A stretch of 64,000 nucleotides of DNA, from positions 1 through 64,000 of the forward strand of contig PBSN01000008.1 in assembly GCA_002726235.1 (NCBI GenBank), given 5' to 3'. Below the pieces are notes generated by a model. That model was not told the DNA's origin and made no database searches. It was given only the letters and a program-made list of their open reading frames with translations. The translations under genes and the position numbers were made by a program. Origin of the DNA: Nitrospiraceae bacterium. Lineage in GTDB: Bacteria > Nitrospirota > Nitrospiria > Nitrospirales > UBA2166. Positions 28,695-43,008 of the stretch are shown one piece after another; position 1 is the stretch's first letter; the number at the start of each line of letters is the position of its first letter.

Positions 28695-30335
28695 ATGAAA
28701 CCAGTTCGAGGACGTTTGCTTGCGCTTGGAATTATTGTGGTGCTCTCCGGAGCGTTTTTTCTTCCGTCAACCCCGTACTTCGCGATGATGCCGGCGTGGT
28801 GGCAAGAGTACTTTCCGAGCAAGGGTACTCGATTAGGCTTAGATCTCCAGGGTGGCATGCATTTGGTCTTGGAAGTTCAAACAGATAAAGCGGTGGAAAT
28901 TAATCTCGATCGAACGGCTGACGGCATCAATGGATTATTGGAAGAAAATGACATCTTGGATGCAGAGGTGAAGCGCATTGATCAAACCAACGTGCAGGTA
29001 GTGGTATCAGGAGAGCACTTGGAGAGTGAAATTGAGACTGTGATATCGGAAACCTATGCAACCTTGATTAGGCGTTCCTCAGACGAGGAAGGCGTGTTGA
29101 TCTTTGGAATTAGCGAGCAAGAAGCCAAGCGAATTAAAGAAGGGGCTGTTGAACAGGCGTTGGAGACAATTAGAAACAGGGTGGACGAATTTGGTGTAGC
29201 TGAACCATTGATCCAGACACAGGGGCTCAAAGAGATTGTCGTGCAGCTTCCTGGGATCAAGGATCCAAAGCGTGCGCTCAGGTTGATCAAGAGCACAGCC
29301 CAACTTGAATTTAAGTTGCTTGATGAGGATCATGTGTTAGCGCGGGAACTTCCTCAACTGATTGCGGCGGGACAGGAAGACTCAACCTTGCAGGAGTTTG
29401 CTGACCGAATTCCAGAGGAAGACGAAATTCTTTTTGAGCGGCAGGTGAATCTTGATAGCGGGGTTGTCAGTAAGGTTCCCTATCTCATAAAAAAACAAGC
29501 CATGCTGACGGGTGATTTGTTAACGGACGCGCGAGTACAGGTTGGAGAGTTTAATGAGCCATATGTTTCGATTTCATTTGATCGAACCGGTGGCAAGATT
29601 TTCGATACGGTCACGGCGGCAAACGTTCAAAAGCGTATGGCGATTATTCTTGATGATACCGTTTACTCGGCTCCGGTTATTCAGGAACGGATCTCTGGAG
29701 GACGTGCTCAAATTACAGGGTCGTTTACTCACCAAGAAGCGGCTGATTTGGCTATTGCATTGCGAGCGGGTGCGTTGCCAGCGCCAGTGGCCATTATTCA
29801 GAACCTGACGGTTGGTCCGTCGCTGGGACGCGATTCAATTGAAAAGGGTGCGACTTCGATGGCGATTGCCGCATTTCTCGTTGTCGTGTTCATGATCTAC
29901 TATTATCGAATTTCCGGCCTGATTGCAGATGTCGCGCTGGTGTTAAATGTTGTGGGACTCATTGGAGCCTTGGGCGGACTTGAAGCAACGCTCACGCTTC
30001 CTGGTATTGCCGGGATCATCTTAACCATTGGTATGGGGGTTGACTCCAACGTGCTCATTTTGGAACGTATTCGTGAGGAGATTCGACAGGAAAAACCGGT
30101 TCGATTAGCGATTGATGCTGGGTACAACAAAGCCCTTCTGACCATTGTGGATGCTCATGTCACGACATTGATTACTGGGTTTGCACTATTCGTGTTTGGC
30201 ACCGGCCCAATCAAGGGATTTGCGGTCACACTGTGCCTTGGTATCGGCATTAACCTGTTTACGGCGTTGGTTGGGACAAAGGTGGTTTATGATATTGGGA
30301 ATAACCGCTGGAGGTTTAAGCGTCTTAGTGTTTGA
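28695..30335 (+). CDS. secD: protein translocase subunit SecD
   Basis: 546-residue RND-like membrane protein that uses the proton-motive force to pull substrates through SecYEG on the periplasmic side. TM1 is at about 7-25, LGLDLQGGMHLVLEV starts the first periplasmic domain, then a large periplasmic head, then five C-terminal helices from about 375 with the GVDSNVLILERIREE motif. Residues normal for a SecD not fused to SecF. It is followed 79 bp later by secF. Confidence 0.96.
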   Translation: MKPVRGRLLALGIIVVLSGAFFLPSTPYFAMMPAWWQEYFPSKGTRLGLDLQGGMHLVLEVQTDKAVEINLDRTADGINGLLEENDILDAEVKRIDQTNVQVVVSGEHLESEIETVISETYATLIRRSSDEEGVLIFGISEQEAKRIKEGAVEQALETIRNRVDEFGVAEPLIQTQGLKEIVVQLPGIKDPKRALRLIKSTAQLEFKLLDEDHVLARELPQLIAAGQEDSTLQEFADRIPEEDEILFERQVNLDSGVVSKVPYLIKKQAMLTGDLLTDARVQVGEFNEPYVSISFDRTGGKIFDTVTAANVQKRMAIILDDTVYSAPVIQERISGGRAQITGSFTHQEAADLAIALRAGALPAPVAIIQNLTVGPSLGRDSIEKGATSMAIAAFLVVVFMIYYYRISGLIADVALVLNVVGLIGALGGLEATLTLPGIAGIILTIGMGVDSNVLILERIREEIRQEKPVRLAIDAGYNKALLTIVDAHVTTLITGFALFVFGTGPIKGFAVTLCLGIGINLFTALVGTKVVYDIGNNRWRFKRLSV

Positions 30336-30414
30336 TGTATGGCGTATTACCGTTGGCTTAGGACGTTCAAGTTAACCTGAATCCTGTTCGCTGACCCCTT
30401 AATTCGGAGGATTT

Positions 30415-31332
30415 GTGGTAGAGATTGTTGGGAAAACAAATTTTGATTTCATGGGAAAACGTAAATACACCTTTACGGTTTCCGGGCTGATGGTGTTTAT
30501 TGGCTGTGTTGCGTTATTCCAGATCGGATGGGGGACGGCAAACTTAGGCATTGATTTTGCGGGAGGTACAGCCGTTCAGCTCAGGTTTGATAACCCTATG
30601 CCCATTGATCAGGCCAGGGACGCCCTTGGAAAGAGTGGACTTGGAGATGCCGACCTCCAAGAGATCGTTCGTGAAAACAAACTGATGATTCGGGTGAAAG
30701 AGTCAACTACAATCGAGGAAGAGGTTGCAGACCGGATTGTCAAAGTTTTTGAAGATGCTTTTCCAGAAAATCAATTTGTCGTCGATTCTAGTGTTGAAAT
30801 TGGACCGACCATAGGGAAGAAGCTTCAAAAAGATGCCCTTGTCGCAATTTTCATCTCATTGGTTGGGATTATTTTGTACATCGCAGCGCGCTTTGAAGTT
30901 CGTTTCGGTTTTGCGGCAGCGGTAGCCACCTTCCACGATGTGTTCGTCGTGTTGGGAATTTTCTACATTTTGGATAAGGAAATTACCCTGCTCGTTGTTA
31001 CCGCACTGTTAACGTTGGCGGGTTATTCATTAACTGATACGGTTGTTGTCTTTGACCGAATCAGGGAAAATCTTCGTATTCGTCGCCGGCAACCTATAGA
31101 TCAAGTAATCAATGCCGGGATCAATCAGGTGTTGAGTCGGACGATAATTACCACACTGACCATCGTATTGGTGTTGATTCCTCTGACTTTCTTTGGCGGG
31201 GAAGTGCTTCATGATTTTTCCCTTGCTCTGTTAATCGGGGTGTTGATCGGGACCTATTCCTCGGTATTCGTGGCAAGTCCAATTTTGGTCGTGTGGAAGG
31301 GGAGCCGAGGGAAACTTCTCAGCCGGATGTGA
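30415..31332 (+). CDS. secF: protein translocase subunit SecF
   Basis: 305-residue partner of SecD with six transmembrane helices. LGIDFAGGTAVQLRF after TM1 and GYSLTDTVVVFDRIREN in the C-terminal half are signature motifs. GTG start at 30415 with CGGAGG 5 nt before. The gene ends the argS-tgt-yajC-secD-secF run, and a small hairpin lies 70 bp past the stop. Confidence 0.96.
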   Translation: MVEIVGKTNFDFMGKRKYTFTVSGLMVFIGCVALFQIGWGTANLGIDFAGGTAVQLRFDNPMPIDQARDALGKSGLGDADLQEIVRENKLMIRVKESTTIEEEVADRIVKVFEDAFPENQFVVDSSVEIGPTIGKKLQKDALVAIFISLVGIILYIAARFEVRFGFAAAVATFHDVFVVLGIFYILDKEITLLVVTALLTLAGYSLTDTVVVFDRIRENLRIRRRQPIDQVINAGINQVLSRTIITTLTIVLVLIPLTFFGGEVLHDFSLALLIGVLIGTYSSVFVASPILVVWKGSRGKLLSRM

Positions 31333-32255: not shown

Positions 32256-35200
32256 GTGATACGTACAATAAGCATTAGATCACTGTTTGTACTGGTAGCC
32301 GGTGTGGTTGCCATCTTTGGAAGTGCAGTGCTCGCCGTGGGCCAGACATTTACGTCTACTGGCACCCTTACCGCACCACGAATCTTTCATACCGCCACAT
32401 TGTTGCCGGATGGACGAGTGCTCCTCGCCGGTGGCTCGGATGCGGGGGCGACAGCGGAGCTGTTTGACCCAACGATTGCAGCGTTTTTTCCCGCGGGTAG
32501 CATGCTTACGACTCGTACTCTTCATTCCGCAACTCTCCTGAATAATGGGCAGGTGCTCATCGCCGGCGGCGTGGGTAGTGGCGCATCAGCGGAGCTGTTT
32601 GACCCGGCGACTGGGATTTTCACCCCGACAGGTAGTCTGATCACGGCCCGGAGTAATCATACGGCGACTCTATTGCCCGATGGACACGTGCTCCTCGCCG
32701 GAGGAACGGGCGCGGATGGGTTGCCTCGCGCGACGGCCGAGCGCTATGATCCGCTAACCGGAACCTTTGCCGCGACGGGTAGTTTGACCTCTGTGCGAAC
32801 GTTTCACCGCGCCACAATCCTTACGAATGGGCAGGTGCTCCTAACAGGAGGCGCTGAGGATGCGACGACGACCGAACTTTATGACCCTGCCACCGAGATC
32901 TTTACCCCTGCCAGCAACATGACGGAAGCCCGTAGCAACCATACTGCCACCCTGTTGTCCACTGGACAGGTGCTTATTGCGGGGGGTGCGGGAGAAGGGG
33001 GGCGGACGTTATCCTCCGCCGAACTGTTTGATCCAACAATAAACGCCTCTGGCCGTTTTGGGGTGTTTACGTCGACGGGTAGCTTGCTCACTGAGCGGCG
33101 AGATCCGACGGCAACGCTCTTATCAAATGGTCAGGTACTCGTTGCAGGAGGCTTGGCGGGAGGATCTACCGCGGAGCTCTTTGATCCGGCGACAGGCGTA
33201 TTTTCCCCGACGGAACCTTTGACCACGGAGCGTGCATTTCAGACAGCCACCCGTCTGCCCACTGGACAGGTACTGATTGCGGGGGGCGTTGGTGGCAGCA
33301 CGACTGCCGAGTTCTTTGAGTTTGAGCTCTCCGCCTCTGTGCCAGAGGTGCTGGTTTCGTCTGAGCCGGATGTTGCGCTTGAGATGCTCATCAATGGTCG
33401 CTTTCTCGAAGCGGACAGTATGAGCGCAGCTCGCCAGAGCCATACGGCGACTCTTTTGTCGACGGGGCAGATCCTTGTCGCTGGAGGGATTGGTGGCAGC
33501 GCGACGGCCGAGCTGTTTGACACTGAATCCGAATCGTTTTTCCCGACAGGGTCCATGGCTGTGGCACGCCACGAGCATACGGCAGTGTCGTTGTCGGATG
33601 GCCGTGTGCTGATTGCCGGAGGATCAGGCGGCGGCGCAACGGCCGAGTTGTATGGGCTGGACACGGAGTCCTTCACTGCAACCGGGAACTTGACGACCGC
33701 CCGAAGCCGTCATACTGCTACCCGGCTGACTGATGGCCGTGTCCTCCTCACCGGTGGAATTAGCGAGGACGGCCGCACACTTTCCTCGGCCGAGGTGTTC
33801 GACCCGATCACGGGATCCTTCACCGCGACCGGCACCTTGACGACCGCCCGAAGTCGCCATACCGCCACATTGTTGACGGATGGCCGCGTGCTTCTCACCG
33901 GCGGCCTGGGCAACATCTTTGCACTTGCGACGGCTGAGGTGTTTGATCCGACCACGGGATTCTTCACCGCGACCGGCACCTTGACGATCGCTCGGAGTTT
34001 CCATACCGCTACACTGTTGCCTGATGGCAGTGTCCTCGTCGCAGGCGGGGTCGCGCAGGACGCTTCGGTTGGTAAGACGGCCGAGCTGTTCAATCCAAGT
34101 ACTGAATCATTCGTTCAGGCCGCTGATATGACGCTGGCACGCGAACTTCATACGGCCACGTTGCTTCCGAGTGGGCACGTGATTCTCGCGGGCGGAGTTA
34201 GCGGCGGCGCAGAGGCATTCGATCCGGTGACGGCCTCATTCACTGCCCTTGCTTCGATGATGACACCGCGTCAATTGCACACGGCCACCTTGCTTCCGAG
34301 CGGGCAGTTGCTCTTGACAGGGGGTATTGGCATTCTCGCTACCGCGGAGCTATTCGTGAAGTCTGCGCCTGATCTTGCCATGACCATTACAAAACTGAGA
34401 CTGAAGGCAAAGGAAACGGGTAACAAGCTTAAAGTTAAAGTGACAATCGGAAATCTCGGGACGGAAATAGCCAACAGTCCATTTTCCGTTTCCTTATTCC
34501 TGTCCGATAATGAGAGTTTGGATGAGCAGGATGCCATTCTCCAAACCATCGCGATGGATGATGTCAGAGCTGGTGAAGAAGTGAATATGCAGTTTAAGGT
34601 CAAGGGCCTTGGAGCTATTGGCGGCATGTTCGCAATTGTCACCCTTGATCCCGTTGCCGGCGAAGAGAATATGCAAAATAATGTCTTGGCTCAGCTTGTC
34701 GAGGAGCCCGCCCCCGTTACCTCTCTCGTGGCCGTCAGTACTGCTGGAGCCGGGAGCGGTGTGGTCAGCAGCACTCCAGAGGGTATCTTGTGTCCCATCG
34801 TTGCTTGCAGCAGCAACTTTACAGCCAACGCAAGCGTTCTTTTCACGGCCACAGCTGATCCGGGTTCTGTGTTCACGGGGTGGCTCGGCGACACGTGTAG
34901 TGTTGCCGTTATCGCCGATAATGGATTGAGCGGAACCTGTCAGGTCCTTCAGTTGCTTGAGGACAGGTCGGTGATTGCATCCTTCGAGCTTGTGCTTGCC
35001 GAGATCGTGCCTGTTGAGACCACGCCTGTCGAGCCGGTGCCTGCTGTTGCGGGGCTGATTCTCACGGTCACCACGACGGGTGCAGGGACGGTTACGAGTA
35101 TACCGGGAGGTATTGCGTGTGGGGCGGATTGTGCAGAAACCTATTCCCCAGGAGCCATCGTTATTTTGCAAGCAACTCCAGATGAAGGGTCAATATTTGT

Positions 35201-35303
35201 CGGATGGAGTGGCGGTGGGTGCGTAGGCACCGGGGACTGTTTCATGGACATGACAGACAACCAAACCGTGCTCGCTCAGTTCATAGGGGCAACATCGCCT
35301 TAG
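32256..35303 (+). CDS. large secreted Kelch-repeat protein with CARDB and InlB-like C-terminal domains
   Basis: 1015 residues. Residues 1-30 are a signal peptide (hydrophobic 11-26, then AVGQ). From about 31 to 705 there are 14 Kelch-type blades of 40-68 residues, each with the pattern R-x3-H-T-A-T-L-L-x-x-G-x-V-L-(I/L)-x-G-G and a later A-E-x-(F/Y)-(D/N). A spacer of some 20 residues falls after blade 7, so the array reads as two seven-bladed propellers. At about 708-825 is a CARDB-like beta-sandwich (VTIGNLGTEIANSPFSV). Two divergent InlB B-repeat-like domains follow (GSVFTGWLGDTC; GSIFVGWSGGGC), each with cysteines. No enzyme motif or membrane anchor; likely an exported binding or adhesion protein. 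GTG start after AGAGGGGG. Confidence 0.85.
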   Translation: MIRTISIRSLFVLVAGVVAIFGSAVLAVGQTFTSTGTLTAPRIFHTATLLPDGRVLLAGGSDAGATAELFDPTIAAFFPAGSMLTTRTLHSATLLNNGQVLIAGGVGSGASAELFDPATGIFTPTGSLITARSNHTATLLPDGHVLLAGGTGADGLPRATAERYDPLTGTFAATGSLTSVRTFHRATILTNGQVLLTGGAEDATTTELYDPATEIFTPASNMTEARSNHTATLLSTGQVLIAGGAGEGGRTLSSAELFDPTINASGRFGVFTSTGSLLTERRDPTATLLSNGQVLVAGGLAGGSTAELFDPATGVFSPTEPLTTERAFQTATRLPTGQVLIAGGVGGSTTAEFFEFELSASVPEVLVSSEPDVALEMLINGRFLEADSMSAARQSHTATLLSTGQILVAGGIGGSATAELFDTESESFFPTGSMAVARHEHTAVSLSDGRVLIAGGSGGGATAELYGLDTESFTATGNLTTARSRHTATRLTDGRVLLTGGISEDGRTLSSAEVFDPITGSFTATGTLTTARSRHTATLLTDGRVLLTGGLGNIFALATAEVFDPTTGFFTATGTLTIARSFHTATLLPDGSVLVAGGVAQDASVGKTAELFNPSTESFVQAADMTLARELHTATLLPSGHVILAGGVSGGAEAFDPVTASFTALASMMTPRQLHTATLLPSGQLLLTGGIGILATAELFVKSAPDLAMTITKLRLKAKETGNKLKVKVTIGNLGTEIANSPFSVSLFLSDNESLDEQDAILQTIAMDDVRAGEEVNMQFKVKGLGAIGGMFAIVTLDPVAGEENMQNNVLAQLVEEPAPVTSLVAVSTAGAGSGVVSSTPEGILCPIVACSSNFTANASVLFTATADPGSVFTGWLGDTCSVAVIADNGLSGTCQVLQLLEDRSVIASFELVLAEIVPVETTPVEPVPAVAGLILTVTTTGAGTVTSIPGGIACGADCAETYSPGAIVILQATPDEGSIFVGWSGGGCVGTGDCFMDMTDNQTVLAQFIGATSP

Positions 35304-36326: not shown

Positions 36327-36402
36327 GGCGGCGTACCCAAGTGGTTAAGGGAGCAGTCTGCAAAACTGCGATTCAGCGGTTCGATTCCGCTCGCCGCCTC
36401 CA
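36327..36402 (+). tRNA. tRNA-Cys (GCA)
   Basis: 76-nt cloverleaf: acceptor GGCGGCG/CGCCGCC, anticodon loop CTGCAAA with GCA, T arm GCGGTTCGATTCCGC, discriminator U73 and encoded CCA. U73 and the GCA anticodon are the identity elements for CysRS. Confidence 0.96.
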
Positions 36403-36690: not shown

Positions 36691-38754
36691 ATGATGGAAA
36701 TGGATTTGACGGGAATAACGGTTCTGGTTTCGATCGTGTGCAGCATGATTGGCATCGGGTATGCTGCGTATTTGACCATGTGGGTTCTGAAACGTGATGA
36801 GGGCAATGAAAAGATGAAGAGTATTGCGCGGGCTATTCAGGAAGGTGCACGCGCGTATCTTAATCGTCAGTACGGCACCGTCGCAGTGGTGGCAGCGGTC
36901 ATGGCTGTGCTGTTGTGGCTTGTGTTTGACTGGCTGACCGCAGTTGGGTTTCTTATCGGGGCGGTGGCCTCGGCTTTTGCCGGCTATGTTGGGATGCATA
37001 TGGCTGTTCGAGCCAATGTTCGGACCGCACAAGATGCCCATGATGGCCTCGACCCAGCGTTGCGGGTCGCGTTTCGTGGGGGTGCCGTAACCGGATTGTT
37101 GTTGATCGGCCTTGGACTGCTCTCGGTGGCCGGATTTTACGCCTTCGCGGAGTTTATTACAGAAGGCCCGAAAGGCGCGGTGCATGCTCTTATCGGTTTA
37201 GCATTTGGTGGAAGCCTCATCAGCGTATTTGCTAGGGTCGGTGGGGGGATTTTCACCAAAGCGGCTGATGTTGGTGCCGATCTCGTTGGAAAAGTTGAAG
37301 CGGGTATTCCAGAAGATGATCCAAGAAATCCTGCGGTGATTGCGGATAATGTTGGGGACAACGTTGGCGATTGTGCTGGTATGGCGGCGGATCTGTTTGA
37401 AACCTACGTGGTCACGACTGTTGCTGCGATGGTATTGGCAGTCTCGTTATTTCCAGGTCAACTGGAACCCGTCCTCTATCCTCTGCTTTTGGGCGCTGTC
37501 GCGATTCTTGCCACCGTTGTTGGTATTTGGTTTGTACGTGTGGGTGCAGGTGGGAGCATTATGGCGGCGCTCTACAAGGGGCTGGCGGTTGCAGGTATTG
37601 GATCCGGCATTGCATTCTATCCCATTACGAACATGCTGATGGATGGCGTTGGTGGTTTTTCTGGTCTTGCATATTTTGGCACAGCAGTTATTGGACTCGT
37701 CGTTACACTCGCTATGGTCGTCATTACGGATTATTACACGTCAACGGAATACGCTCCGGTGCGTGAAGTTGCACAAGCCAGTACCACCGGTCACGCAACC
37801 AATATCATCTCCGGGTTAGCGGTAAGTCTTCAATCCACTGCGCTTCCGGTCATCGTGATCGGGGCGGCGATCTTGGGAAGTTTTCATCTAGCAGGTCTAT
37901 ATGGTGTCGGTGTCGCAGCTGTAGCGATGTTGTCGATGGCAGGGATTATAGTTGCCATCGATGCGTTTGGTCCCATCACGGATAATGCGGGTGGTATTGC
38001 TGAAATGGCGGGTCTTCCTGAGGAGGTGCGCAATATTACCGATCCGCTCGATGCAGTGGGGAATACCACGAAAGCGGTGACCAAGGGATATGCGATTGGG
38101 TCGGCTGCTCTCGCCGCGATCGTGTTGTTTTCCGAGTATGCCCGCGAAGTGGTTCCCAGTGCGGAGGGGCAATCTGTGTCTTTTGATCTCGCTGATCCCT
38201 TGGTTATCGTGGGGCTGTTTCTCGGCGGGATGCTTCCGTTTCTCTTTGGCTCACTGTGCATGAAAGCGGTTGGTGAGGCAGGAGGCTTGGTTGTTGAGGA
38301 AGTCCGCCGGCAGTTTCGCGAGGTTAAGGGCATTATGGATGGAAGTGGAAAACCTGAGTACGGGAAATGTGTCGATATTGTGACCAAAGCCGCGATCAAA
38401 AAAATGATGATTCCTGGTCTTATTCCTGTCGTTGCTCCAATTTTAGTTGGGGTGATTCTTGGGCCAATTGCACTTGGGGCAATGCTCGTCGGCACGATTA
38501 TCACGGGCCTGTTTGTCGCAATTTCCATGACGAGTGGCGGTGGGGCGTGGGATAACGCGAAGAAGTACATTGAAGATGGCCACCATGGTGGGAAACAAAG
38601 TCTTGCTCATCAGGCTGCGGTTACTGGGGATACCGTAGGAGATCCGTACAAAGACACGGCTGGACCGGCAATCAATCCGATGATTAAGGTTGTCAATATC
38701 GTTGCGCTGATGATTGTTGCCAAACTGGGAGCCGATGGATTGCTCGGTCTATGA
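36691..38754 (+). CDS. hppA: K+-independent membrane proton-translocating pyrophosphatase
   Basis: 687-residue integral membrane pump with about 16 transmembrane helices that couples PPi hydrolysis to proton export. The PPi/Mg site [20 protein letters not shown] is at 208-227, with further acidic clusters in [16 protein letters not shown] and the C-terminal [18 protein letters not shown]. The position distinguishing the K+ subfamilies carries K461 (and T464) in [10 protein letters not shown], where K+-dependent enzymes have Ala and Gly, so this is the K+-independent H+ type. GAGGGAGG precedes the start. The enzyme saves energy by recycling PPi from biosynthesis. Confidence 0.96.
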
Positions 38755-38827
38755 TCGCGTGAGGATGTTTGCGGATGGTGTTTGTATGTAGCCTAATGTA
38801 GGGATCGCATACGAGGGAAGGCGGAAT

Positions 38828-39025
38828 ATGGAACAACGGCAGAAATCGTATGACGCAAGTAAGAGTAGCGATCCTGAACAGGATGCGACCCAAAGTCAGA
38901 CCGTCATTGAGACGGGAGAAAAACTCAAGCAGGACATCGATTCCCTCATTGATGAGATTGACGCGGTCTTGGAGGAGAATGCCGAAGAGTTCGTGAAGAA
39001 TTACATTCAGAAAGGTGGGGAATAG
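38828..39025 (+). CDS. pup: prokaryotic ubiquitin-like protein Pup
   Basis: 65-residue, highly charged protein. The C-terminal half (DIDSLIDEIDAVLEENAEEF, then VKNYIQKGGE) matches the helical binding region of Mycobacterium Pup, which ends DDVLEENAEDFVRAYVQKGGQ-like. Pup is ligated through its C-terminal glutamate to lysines of targets by PafA and delivers them to the Mpa/ARC-proteasome. This Pup already ends Gly-Gly-Glu, so Dop deamidation would not be needed. The N-terminal 25 residues are disordered. GGAAGGCGG sits 4 nt before the ATG. No pafA, dop, mpa or proteasome gene is in this window; recJ starts 5 bp later. Confidence 0.9.
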   Translation: MEQRQKSYDASKSSDPEQDATQSQTVIETGEKLKQDIDSLIDEIDAVLEENAEEFVKNYIQKGGE

Positions 39026-39030
39026 GGTTC

Positions 39031-40773
39031 TTGTCACGTGTTGTCCGTCAAAAAGAATGGAACATTCCACAACGAAATAGCGATGTAGAGCGGCAGCTTG
39101 TTGAGTTGGCGAATATCGGTTCCGTCACAGCGTCGGTCCTGGTGTCGAGGGGCGTGGTTACTGCGGAGCAGGCGCTGAGTCAACTTACCGGGCGTGGGGA
39201 AATTCTCCACGATCCCTTCCTCATTCCTGACATGGAGCGGGCAGTCGATCGTATGAGGCAAGCCATTCAAGGGCAGGAGCGTGTTCTTATTTATGGTGAC
39301 TACGACGTCGATGGAATCACCTCAACAAGCCTGTATGTTGAATTCTTTCGTGCGCATGGACTCGAAGTCGCATACCAACTGCCGCATCGATTTCGGGATG
39401 GTTATGGCTTCAATATGGATACCATCACTCAATTTCGAGACCGTGAAATCTCATTATTGATTACGACTGATTGTGGCACGACATCTCGGAATGAGGTGGC
39501 ATATGCTGGGACATGTGGGATTGATGTGATCATTGCCGATCACCATGAGCCCGGCGATGATGGCCTGCCTCATGCTCTCGCCTTGTTAAATCCCTGCCGA
39601 GCAGATTCATCGTATCCCTTCCGAGGTTTGTGTTCCTGTGCCATTGCCTTCAAAGTCGCCATGGCGTACGACCAGAAATATAACGGCGATATTGATAGCC
39701 ATGTCGTCGATTTTGAATTGCGAGACGGCCTAGATCTTGTGGCGTTGGCAACCATTGCCGACATGGCACCATTGGTCAATGAGAATCGCACGCTGGTCTG
39801 TGAGGGATTAAAACGGCTCTCCACCGATGAACGTGTGGGGATCAAAGCATTGAAGAACGTTGCGAACGTGTCTGGTACCTGTCGTGCAGAGACGATTGGG
39901 TTTACGCTAGCACCTCGGATTAATGCTGCGGGCCGGATGGACGATGCAAAAATTGGTGTTCGTCTTCTCACAACACACTCGTTGGATGAGGCTCATGCGA
40001 TTGCGTCCAAGATGAATCGTTTCAATGATGAGAGAAAGCGGGCGCAGCATGAGACAGAACTAGAAGTCGAGGGAATGCTGAGTCAATTGCACGATGGCTC
40101 TGGCCCAATTGTTGTAAGCGGTATTGGGTGGCATATGGGTGTGGTTGGCATTGTTGCAGCTCACATGGCCGAACGATATTATCGCCCTGTCGTTGTCATT
40201 GCCCTGAATGAGAATGGGATCGGTCGCGGATCTGCGCGTAGCATTCCAGAGTTCGATCTGTTTCATGGAATAAACCAATGCCGCATGCATCTGGACGCGT
40301 TTGGAGGCCATAAGTTTGCCGCCGGATTGACAATTCGGCAGGAAAAGATTCCGGCTTTTCGAGAGGCGTTTACTGCGGTTGTCCATGAGGCGATGAATGG
40401 AGCCGATCCTGTGCCTCGCATCAATATTGATGCCGAGGTTGATCTTGGCGAGATTTCCTTCGGAGTGGTTGATGAACTTTCAGCTCTTGGTCCATTTGGA
40501 ACGAAGAACCCAGAACCCATTCTGGCCGCTAGTTATGTACACGTAAGTTCTTATCGACGCGTTGGCCAGGGGCATCTGAGCCTTACATTTCGTTCTCGGA
40601 GTGGGGCTACGTACGATGCGATAGGATTTGGGATGAGTGGGCTGCTGGATGATGGTACGATTGCTCGAGGCCCTGTTGATGCTGCCTTTAAGGTGGGGAG
40701 GGATTCTTGGCGTGGAACTGATCGCTTGCGCTTACAACTTGTCGATGTTCGCCCGAGCTGTGGAATCGCATAG
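39031..40773 (+). CDS. recJ: single-stranded-DNA-specific exonuclease RecJ
   Basis: 580-residue DHH-family 5'-3' exonuclease of recombination and mismatch repair. Motif I DYDVDG is at 90-95, the DHH motif at 170-172 (ADHHEPGD), and the DHHA1 domain follows with GIGWHMGVVGIVAAHMAERY and FGGHKFAAGLTI. The start is TTG at 39031, directly after pup; the Shine-Dalgarno-like GGTGGGG overlaps the end of pup, so translation is probably coupled. Length is normal. Confidence 0.95.
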   Translation: MSRVVRQKEWNIPQRNSDVERQLVELANIGSVTASVLVSRGVVTAEQALSQLTGRGEILHDPFLIPDMERAVDRMRQAIQGQERVLIYGDYDVDGITSTSLYVEFFRAHGLEVAYQLPHRFRDGYGFNMDTITQFRDREISLLITTDCGTTSRNEVAYAGTCGIDVIIADHHEPGDDGLPHALALLNPCRADSSYPFRGLCSCAIAFKVAMAYDQKYNGDIDSHVVDFELRDGLDLVALATIADMAPLVNENRTLVCEGLKRLSTDERVGIKALKNVANVSGTCRAETIGFTLAPRINAAGRMDDAKIGVRLLTTHSLDEAHAIASKMNRFNDERKRAQHETELEVEGMLSQLHDGSGPIVVSGIGWHMGVVGIVAAHMAERYYRPVVVIALNENGIGRGSARSIPEFDLFHGINQCRMHLDAFGGHKFAAGLTIRQEKIPAFREAFTAVVHEAMNGADPVPRINIDAEVDLGEISFGVVDELSALGPFGTKNPEPILAASYVHVSSYRRVGQGHLSLTFRSRSGATYDAIGFGMSGLLDDGTIARGPVDAAFKVGRDSWRGTDRLRLQLVDVRPSCGIA

Positions 40774-40812: not shown

Positions 40813-43008
40813 GTGAGTGTCCTAGCATTAGAATGTGATCGTATTGAGGACGTGATTGGCCGAGTCCTCGCGTATCATCCGACCGCCGATGTCGATCTTC
40901 TTCAACGTGCCTATGACTTTTCTGCACGAGCACATGAGGGGCAACAGCGTCTCTCAGGTGAACCATATCTCAAGCATCCGCTTGCGGTTGCGTCGGTCCT
41001 CTGCGCACTACGACTCGATGTTCCACCTATTGCTGCTGGGCTTCTTCATGATGTGGTTGAAGATACGGTTTGCACCTTCGAGTGTCTTGAGAATGAATTT
41101 GGTGAAGAAATTGCTCGTTTGGTTGACGGGGTCACCAAGATTGGAAAAGTCGAATTTAAGAGTGATGAAGAAAAACAAGCTGAGAATTTTAGGAAGATGC
41201 TTCTGTCGATGGCCGATGATATTCGAGTCATTATCATTAAGCTTGCCGACCGCCTTCACAATATGCAAACACTCAACCATCTACACCCAACACGTAAGGC
41301 AGAAATTGTCCGTGAGACGCTAGAGATTTATGCCCCGTTGGCGAATCGTCTTGGGATTGGGTGGATAAAAAATTCACTGGAAGATTTGTGCCTCAAGTCG
41401 TTGTGGCCAGAGAAATATGAAATGCTTAGCAAGAAGGTGGCCAAACGGATTCAAGAGCGAGAAGCCTATGTCGATGAGGTTACGGAATTTGTCAGTCAAA
41501 AGCTTCTGGAGCAAGGGATCAAAGCAGATATCACAGGTCGACCAAAGCATCTTTATAGCATTTACCAGAAGATGGAGACGCAAGGGATTTTATTCGAGGA
41601 AGTATACGATTTGACCGCTATCCGTGTGACTACCGACACTCTGATTAATTGTTATGGCATCTTAGGGATTGTTCACTCACTGTGGCGGCCAGTTCCTGGT
41701 CGATTTAAGGATTATATTGGTGTCCCCAAGTCTAATCTCTATCAATCTCTCCATACCACGGTGGCAGGACCGAGTGGAGAGCATGTGGAGTTTCAGATTC
41801 GTACTGAGGCAATGCATCGTGTTGCGGAAGAAGGGATCGCTGCCCACTGGCGATATAAGGACAAAGGTAAAGTTAATACAAATGACGAAAAGATCTTTAC
41901 GTGGTTGCGCCAATTGGTGGAATGGCACCGTGATCTTTCGGACAATCGCCAGTTTATGAATTCAGTCAAACTTGGTCTGTATGCCGATGTGATTTATGTC
42001 TTTACGCCTGAAGGTGCTGTCAAAGAGCTTCCCGCAGGTGCAACGTCAATCGATTTTGCCTATGCGGTTCATACCGAGGTCGGTCACCATTATTTTGGTG
42101 CGAAGGTAAACGGAAAGATCGTGCCGCCGTCCACGACGTTACATAGTGGTGATTCAGTGGAAATTCTAACTTCCACGACGAGTGTTCCAAGTAAGGATTG
42201 GTTGAAGTTTGTCCAAACCCCATCGGCTAAAACGAAGATAAAACACTGGATTCGTGATGCAGAGCGAGTGCGCAACGTTGCCCTTGGGAAGAAACTGGTT
42301 GAAAAAGAAATGCGTCGGCAAGGTATGACGCATCGCGAATTGATAGAAATTCAGGAATTTTCTGTCCTCGCAAAACACATTGGGTTCCAGTCTACAGAGG
42401 AACTGCTAGGAGCTGTCAGCGTAGGAAAGGTTTCTGTTTCGCAAGTTGTAAAATGGATGATGGATAAGTTGAAAGGGGGGACTGGTGTCGATGATGGTGA
42501 ACTCTTGCCGCATGATCGAAGCGTCAAGGTTCGAGGTGCGAGTGGGCTTCTATTTCACTTTTCGCGTTGCTGTAATCCTGTTCCCGGAGATCATATATTT
42601 GGATTTATAACCCGTGGACGTGGAATTTCAATTCACGCCTCATGGTGTCATAACTTAGATATTTTAGAATGCCATAAAGAGCGGTTTGTGGATGCGGAAT
42701 GGGATGTTTTGTGTGATCGCACCCACCGAGCGGGCATCTCCGTCTTGACGGTGAATCGACCGGGCCTTTTGGCCAGCGTGTCCTCTACCATTACAGCGGG
42801 GAATGTCAATATTACTTCTGCTGATATCGCAGAGACCCATGATGCGAAGGCTGCACAGAATTTCGTCGTTGAGGTGCGGCATGCGTCTCAGTTGGAGCTA
42901 GTGATTAAAAGTGTTGCGGAACTTGAGGGCGTGTTTTACGCGAAACGCGTCCCAGTCCGTCCCTTTGGCTCTCATCGATTTCGACGTTCCCTTCCTCCCA
43001 AGTCGTAA
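40813..43008 (+). CDS. bifunctional (p)ppGpp synthetase/hydrolase (Rel/SpoT type)
   Basis: 731-residue long RSH protein. The HD hydrolase domain is intact (H55; H79-D80 in GLLHDVVEDT), and the synthetase domain follows with GRPKHLYSIYQKM and PGRFKDYIGVPK, where the RFKD charge pattern marks bifunctional Rel rather than RelA (EFDD). Then come TGS (YVFTPEGAVKELPAGAT), zinc-finger/helical and C-terminal ACT domains (AGISVLTVNRPGLL). It makes and destroys the stringent-response alarmone. GTG start at 40813, 39 bp after recJ. This is the form expected of a single-RSH organism. Confidence 0.95.
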   Translation: MSVLALECDRIEDVIGRVLAYHPTADVDLLQRAYDFSARAHEGQQRLSGEPYLKHPLAVASVLCALRLDVPPIAAGLLHDVVEDTVCTFECLENEFGEEIARLVDGVTKIGKVEFKSDEEKQAENFRKMLLSMADDIRVIIIKLADRLHNMQTLNHLHPTRKAEIVRETLEIYAPLANRLGIGWIKNSLEDLCLKSLWPEKYEMLSKKVAKRIQEREAYVDEVTEFVSQKLLEQGIKADITGRPKHLYSIYQKMETQGILFEEVYDLTAIRVTTDTLINCYGILGIVHSLWRPVPGRFKDYIGVPKSNLYQSLHTTVAGPSGEHVEFQIRTEAMHRVAEEGIAAHWRYKDKGKVNTNDEKIFTWLRQLVEWHRDLSDNRQFMNSVKLGLYADVIYVFTPEGAVKELPAGATSIDFAYAVHTEVGHHYFGAKVNGKIVPPSTTLHSGDSVEILTSTTSVPSKDWLKFVQTPSAKTKIKHWIRDAERVRNVALGKKLVEKEMRRQGMTHRELIEIQEFSVLAKHIGFQSTEELLGAVSVGKVSVSQVVKWMMDKLKGGTGVDDGELLPHDRSVKVRGASGLLFHFSRCCNPVPGDHIFGFITRGRGISIHASWCHNLDILECHKERFVDAEWDVLCDRTHRAGISVLTVNRPGLLASVSSTITAGNVNITSADIAETHDAKAAQNFVVEVRHASQLELVIKSVAELEGVFYAKRVPVRPFGSHRFRRSLPPKS

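Follow-up and report, generated by a model that had tools for sequence, protein, structure and literature searches.

In Mycobacterium tuberculosis the Pup-proteasome system is encoded by mpa, dop-pup-prcB-prcA and pafA, i.e., pup is located between dop and prcB. The order dop-pup-prcBA is considered canonical (PMC3511204), and according to a survey from 2008 a PafA-family gene is "invariably" found next to pup (PMC2588565). Pup outside the Actinobacteria, including the Nitrospirae, has long been known (PMC2588565); a first, sequence-only reading of the DNA discussed here overstated matters when it called Pup largely actinobacterial. Two further systems are closely related. In pupylation without a proteasome of the Corynebacterium type the Pup-PafA-Dop-Mpa set is found in another gene arrangement (PMC3511204), with pup directly before pafA and prcBA missing. 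UBact (NF033388/PF20513) is a parallel operon which has separate homologues of mpa, dop, prcB, prcA and pafA and carries a small tag in the slot between dop and prcB; the tag ends in ...RYRQRTGE, and the enzymes share only about 35-40% identity with their Pup-system counterparts. In the sister orders of the class Nitrospiria and in other classes of the phylum Nitrospirota the arrangement is mpa-dop-pup-prcB-prcA-pafA, and a dop-prcB gap of 195-299 nt holds pup.

The DNA examined, hereafter the window, comprises bases 1-64000 of contig C8 from an incomplete metagenome-assembled genome (1.87 Mb, 27 contigs, 90.65% complete). Its Pup system shares with that of M. tuberculosis all six components, the Pup C-terminal signature with a GG[EQ] end and the NCBIfam equivalog families, yet pup lies far from both dop and prcB. 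The system also differs from the Corynebacterium type, as it has prcBA and a distant pup. We consider it very probable that this is the ordinary Pup of a Pup-proteasome system which was relocated throughout the order Nitrospirales and drawn into a tight cluster with recJ in the genus of the window.

The pup gene and its partners on a second contig

The pup gene (38828..39025, forward strand, stop TAG at 39023-39025) codes for a protein of 65 aa, MEQRQKSYDASKSSDPEQDATQSQTVIETGEKLKQDIDSLIDEIDAVLEENAEEFVKNYIQKGGE, as translated from the open reading frame. The product runs MEQRQK...EIDAVLEENAEEFVKNYIQKGGE, followed by the TAG stop. The sequence-only reading had placed the start correctly, but its end at 39030 took in a 5-nt intergenic gap. 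It was right about the Pup C-terminal signature, EIDAVLEENAEEF followed by QKGGE, and the Gly-Gly-Glu ending is borne out by the translation. The match to PF05639 in the genome search (E = 1.7e-20, 75 bits, cut-off 27) and that to TIGR03687 (E = 4.4e-17, 61.8 bits, cut-off 41.45) are far above chance, the curated cut-off being exceeded over the C-terminal helical region and the tail. Solved mycobacterial Pup chains (PDB) align with E = 7.7e-11. PF20513 (UBact) does not match the protein; PF05639 does instead. The ATG is preceded by a Shine-Dalgarno-like stretch (AGGGAAGGCGGAAT, 38814..38827, forward strand), which reads GGAGGGCGGAA in two congeners and is partly deleted in a third genome of the genus, G184. 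Comparison with two congeners yields dN of 0.08-0.10 and dS of 0.80-1.05, i.e., the frame is under purifying selection. Hence, the frame is a true pup, coding for the tag which plays the part of ubiquitin in bacteria. A PF05639 search detected no second pup in this 90.65% complete genome.

The partners are located on contig C7 (155 kb) in the order mpa-dop-prcB-prcA-pafA, all of them named by NCBIfam. The proteasome ATPase Mpa matches TIGR03689 with 714 bits against a cut-off of 505; Dop (TIGR03688), PrcB (TIGR03690) and PrcA (TIGR03691) each exceed their curated cut-offs. PafA has TIGR03686 as its best family (3.4e-164) with 546.8 bits, just under the cut-off of 551.3, and exceeds the Pfam cut-off for PF03136 with 510 bits. 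A cognate ligase for this Pup is thus encoded in the same genome. The tail by which mycobacterial Mpa docks to the proteasome is GQYL. The Mpa on C7 ends in GHYL, which by its resemblance is a candidate docking tail. In addition to the ligase, the genome therefore has an Mpa/ARC ATPase with a docking-like C-terminus, PrcB, PrcA and Dop. Both ligase-fold enzymes on C7 retain the G-x-E-x-E motif (GIESE, GTETE) and, on inspection, the Asp of NGxRLYxD. All genes for which the sequence-only reading had proposed to search the rest of the genome, pafA, mpa, prcA, prcB and dop, are accounted for. It had also correctly stated that they are not local, as matches to the ligase/depupylase families and the proteasome operon are found exclusively on C7. 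With pafA present and the reading frame conserved, the assignment as Pup has held.

The frames of dop and prcB overlap on C7 which leaves no room for pup at this position, and a second pup hidden in the operon can be dismissed. The pup gene on C8 is neither next to a PafA-family gene nor between dop and prcB; judged by the contig ends it is separated from the operon by at least about 110 kb. In complete or near-complete genomes of relatives the distance varies from 47 kb to 1.4 Mb.

Our evidence for the system consists of the family membership of its components, the catalytic motifs in the sequences, the gene order, and a joint decay upon loss of the operon. By homology with the known biochemistry, ligation, recognition, degradation and depupylation would proceed as in the established systems. 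Mpa would bind Pup at its conserved helical part and thread the tagged protein into the 20S chamber of PrcBA, and Dop would remove the tag. In relatives with a GGQ end Dop would also deamidate the tag. The 61 pup loci of the order comprise 49 GGE ends, 11 GGQ ends and a single decayed GRG. The proposal that a terminal Glu, ready for ligation without Dop, is a special trait does not agree with this variation within Nitrospirales, nor with the retention of Dop. GGE versus GGQ reads as a trivial E/Q polymorphism among Nitrospirales, and the intact Dop would still serve as a depupylase.

The position of pup in Nitrospirales

Pup was detected in 213 of 235 Nitrospirales genomes and is vertically conserved through 37 genera. 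The loci which we checked span four families (f1-f4); the genus of the window belongs to f1. Directly 3' of pup is recJ in 53 of 61 loci, which answers a question about pup-recJ synteny in relatives raised by the sequence-only reading; relA takes this position in six loci, and two are at a contig edge. Neither dop, prc nor pafA is beside pup in any of the 61. Upstream, hppA is found across the order; the exceptions are some of the f4 loci and those cut off by a contig end.

In the window the neighbors, all on the forward strand, are hppA, a membrane pyrophosphatase (36691..38754, NF001951), recJ, a single-strand DNA exonuclease with a TTG start (39031..40773, TIGR00644, 6.9e-155), and relA/spoT (40813..43008, TIGR00691, 1.1e-227), the ancestral neighbor of recJ throughout the phylum. 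The pair secD-secF, which the window retains farther upstream (28695..31332, forward strand), marks the ancestral neighborhood which hppA and pup entered. The region also contains a tRNA-Cys just upstream of hppA (36327-36402) and a frame for a probably secreted protein of 1015 aa with Kelch/galactose-oxidase-type repeats and divergent InlB B-repeats (32256-35303).

A second, independent scan used named genomes and yielded 76 loci of the Nitrospirales type. In 75 of them hppA, recJ or relA is next to pup; in the remaining one pup stands alone at a contig end. Nitrospira moscoviensis is among the named genomes with a relocated pup. Four other matches, labeled Myxococcales, Tectomicrobia, an actinobacterium and a deltaproteobacterium, have the canonical operon. 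One of the loci of the Nitrospirales type bears a Nitrospinota label (L243, JADFRB010000100.1); it shows pup-recJ-relA and reflects either a mislabeled genome or a transfer.

Except for pup, the operon of Nitrospirales has the same families in the same order as the canonical operon of the phylum. The gap which holds pup in the sister clades is closed: dop-prcB spacing is -5 to 104 nt in Nitrospirales compared to 195-299 nt in pup-keeping sisters. Conversely, recJ and relA are adjacent without pup in 16-17 sister-clade genomes, i.e., those with a detected recJ; secD-secF-recJ-relA is present in four of them, from other classes (L264, L274-L276). The shared position at hppA, recJ and relA across the order speaks for a single early move. 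The simplest history is that pup moved once, at or near the base of Nitrospirales, to a place upstream of an older secDF-recJ-relA; this rests on the shared position because 65 aa offer too little sequence to settle the matter by a gene tree. Pup would have left the slot between dop and prcB early in the order and settled next to hppA. In the open-access literature we found no paper which joins pup with recJ or describes a relocation in Nitrospirales, a weak indication that the relocation may be novel.

Genomes of the order in which pup was not detected are not uniformly true losses, because in some of them a contig ends within hppA or hppA is absent entirely. Those which retain a canonical pafA without a match for hppA (e.g., G035 and G073) are most simply regarded as assembly gaps. 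G141 is a clear loss of pup: it keeps only a UBact-type system, and the interval from hppA to recJ lacks pup. UBact itself is present in 167 of the 235 Nitrospirales genomes in a second, divergent operon. An mpa2-dop2-UBact-prcB2-prcA2-pafA2 operon exists beside the Pup system in G025 (L149, G025:C1:928000-942000), G185 (L153) and G207 (L154). UBact was not found in the genome of the window (G000), which leaves Pup as the sole tag of this kind detected in it.

Promoters and the distance to recJ

Of 121 distinct sequences from the order, 114 have a sigma70-like motif, TTGAC-N17-20-TAnnnT, before the start codon of pup (mean of shuffled sequences 0.8), mostly at a distance of 70-130 nt. A site of this type is absent before pup in 33 sister operons and before dop in Nitrospirales. 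A promoter-like site also precedes recJ in 47 of 53 loci of the order; before relA it was seen in one of 62. Given the conserved site before pup and the site before recJ, pup appears to form a separate transcription unit in the majority of Nitrospirales. Terminators after pup are not clearly enriched (7 of 120, shuffle mean 2.3). The mpa operon has a separate strong site, TTGACC-N17-18-TAnAAT, which is kept upstream of mpa across the phylum (L007:7030-7070 and L116-L148), canonical operons included; in the genome of the window it reads TTGACC...AACAAT. This site is often accompanied by an inverted-repeat-like spacer and might include an operator. With a promoter of its own at the new position, the supply of the tag would be set separately from the machinery.

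A different picture emerges in the genus of the window. The spacer between hppA and pup has a length of 73 nt (38755..38827, forward strand). The conserved promoter motif of the order is absent from it, just as from the other three genomes of the genus, and these 73 nt yielded no terminator-like site. A weak match, TTGCGG-N19-TAATGT, is present upstream of pup in the window. The stop of pup and the TTG of recJ at 39031 are separated by 5 nt (39026..39030, forward strand), precisely as the sequence-only reading had noted. Each of the four genomes of the genus has a gap of 4-5 nt, compared with 116-674 nt in the remainder of Nitrospirales; consequently, tight coupling to recJ is genus-specific. 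A co-translation of pup and recJ, suggested from the window, is therefore plausible within the genus and ruled out as a general property beyond it. The short spacer without a terminator-like site or the conserved promoter makes it plausible that, in this genus only, pup is read through from hppA and linked to the translation of recJ; co-transcription is deduced here from the spacing and the missing motif.

In a tree of Dop and PrcB, in which monophyly of Nitrospirales has a support of 88, family f2, which possesses the promoter, is basal and f1 groups with f3 and f4 (support 100). Since f1 is nested in this manner, its missing pup promoter was probably lost. The genus of the window would then have lost the promoter together with the spacer between pup and recJ, resulting in a tight hppA-pup-recJ-relA cluster. 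A general conserved gene between pup and recJ does not exist in the order. In family f2 (L039, L046, L060) the gap contains a conserved gene for a protein of about 170 aa, apparently secreted, with an N-terminal hydrophobic stretch and the motif IVMAHGQEMVMG.

Decay of pup after operon loss and the significance of its neighbors

In G184, a congener which is 96% complete, the Pup-proteasome operon is cleanly deleted (L152, G184:C106; L151, G184:C79). At the former site a 3' stub of pafA stands between thiE and an M23 peptidase gene, with conserved flanks, and the sole remaining match to the proteasome family aligns like the HslV-type match of other genomes. The distant pup has lost its ATG, its Shine-Dalgarno stretch and two codons, and GGE has changed to GRG. 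Its dN to G000 is 0.34, about four times the 0.08-0.10 of the other congeners. The adjacent recJ is intact and RecJ has an ordinary dN of 0.13. The decay of pup after deletion of the operon ties this distant gene to that machinery. The decayed frame is still open. Under simulated neutral drift the frame stays free of stops in roughly 10-40% of runs, thus drift suffices often enough and the notion that the frame is kept open to serve recJ translation is not supported. In essence, G184 is a natural experiment in which decay of a tag is linked to loss of a remote operon.

These data bear directly on the possibility that Pup has left protein degradation and serves DNA repair together with RecJ, a shared function being the reason for the tight coupling. 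The adjacency of recJ is widespread in the order, the gap shrinks to 4-5 nt in the genus, and the mycobacterial proteasome clears DNA-repair proteins after damage (PMC6789036). However, G184 displays the opposite of what is predicted, an intact recJ next to a decaying pup. Further, the recJ-relA pair is older than the arrival of pup, so that adjacency is no sign of a repair role; the gap is wide elsewhere in the order, a promoter-like site generally precedes recJ itself, and in several genomes pup is directly followed by relA. We regard such a function as highly improbable, and a DNA-repair role for Pup here is unsupported. Even less can be said for an orphan Pup without a cognate ligase, a relic or a horizontally acquired stray gene. 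The window, which has no partner gene, invited this interpretation, and the genome search has ruled it out by uncovering the complete operon; purifying selection and vertical conservation are also at odds with it, and its probability is negligible. Most likely, the Pup itself is ordinary and its arrangement, shared across the lineage, is new.

What the arrangement does is a separate matter. Possibly, though we would not favor it, the adjacency of pup to hppA and recJ has no regulatory meaning anywhere and reflects a chance landing followed by slow change of gene order. The neighborhood is generally stable, as recJ-relA is kept phylum-wide without pup, and pup normally has its own promoter. Yet a chance landing leaves unexplained why the genus lost the promoter and narrowed the gap to 4-5 nt while Pup is still selected. 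With similar reserve we suggest that across the order the relocation may render tag supply independent of ligase and proteasome, and that the unit in the genus of the window may tie Pup to the expression of hppA, RecJ and the stringent response.

An ordinary Pup in a relocated position means that a whole order, including cultured nitrite oxidizers such as N. moscoviensis, breaks the rule that pup is next to a PafA-family gene. Annotation that relies on gene neighborhood can overlook the system or, as in the present case, take such a pup for an orphan. The relocation turns a regulatory question into a testable one, i.e., does the supply of Pup limit pupylation independently of the enzymes? Many Nitrospirales run UBact as a second tag in parallel, which provides a setting for this question.
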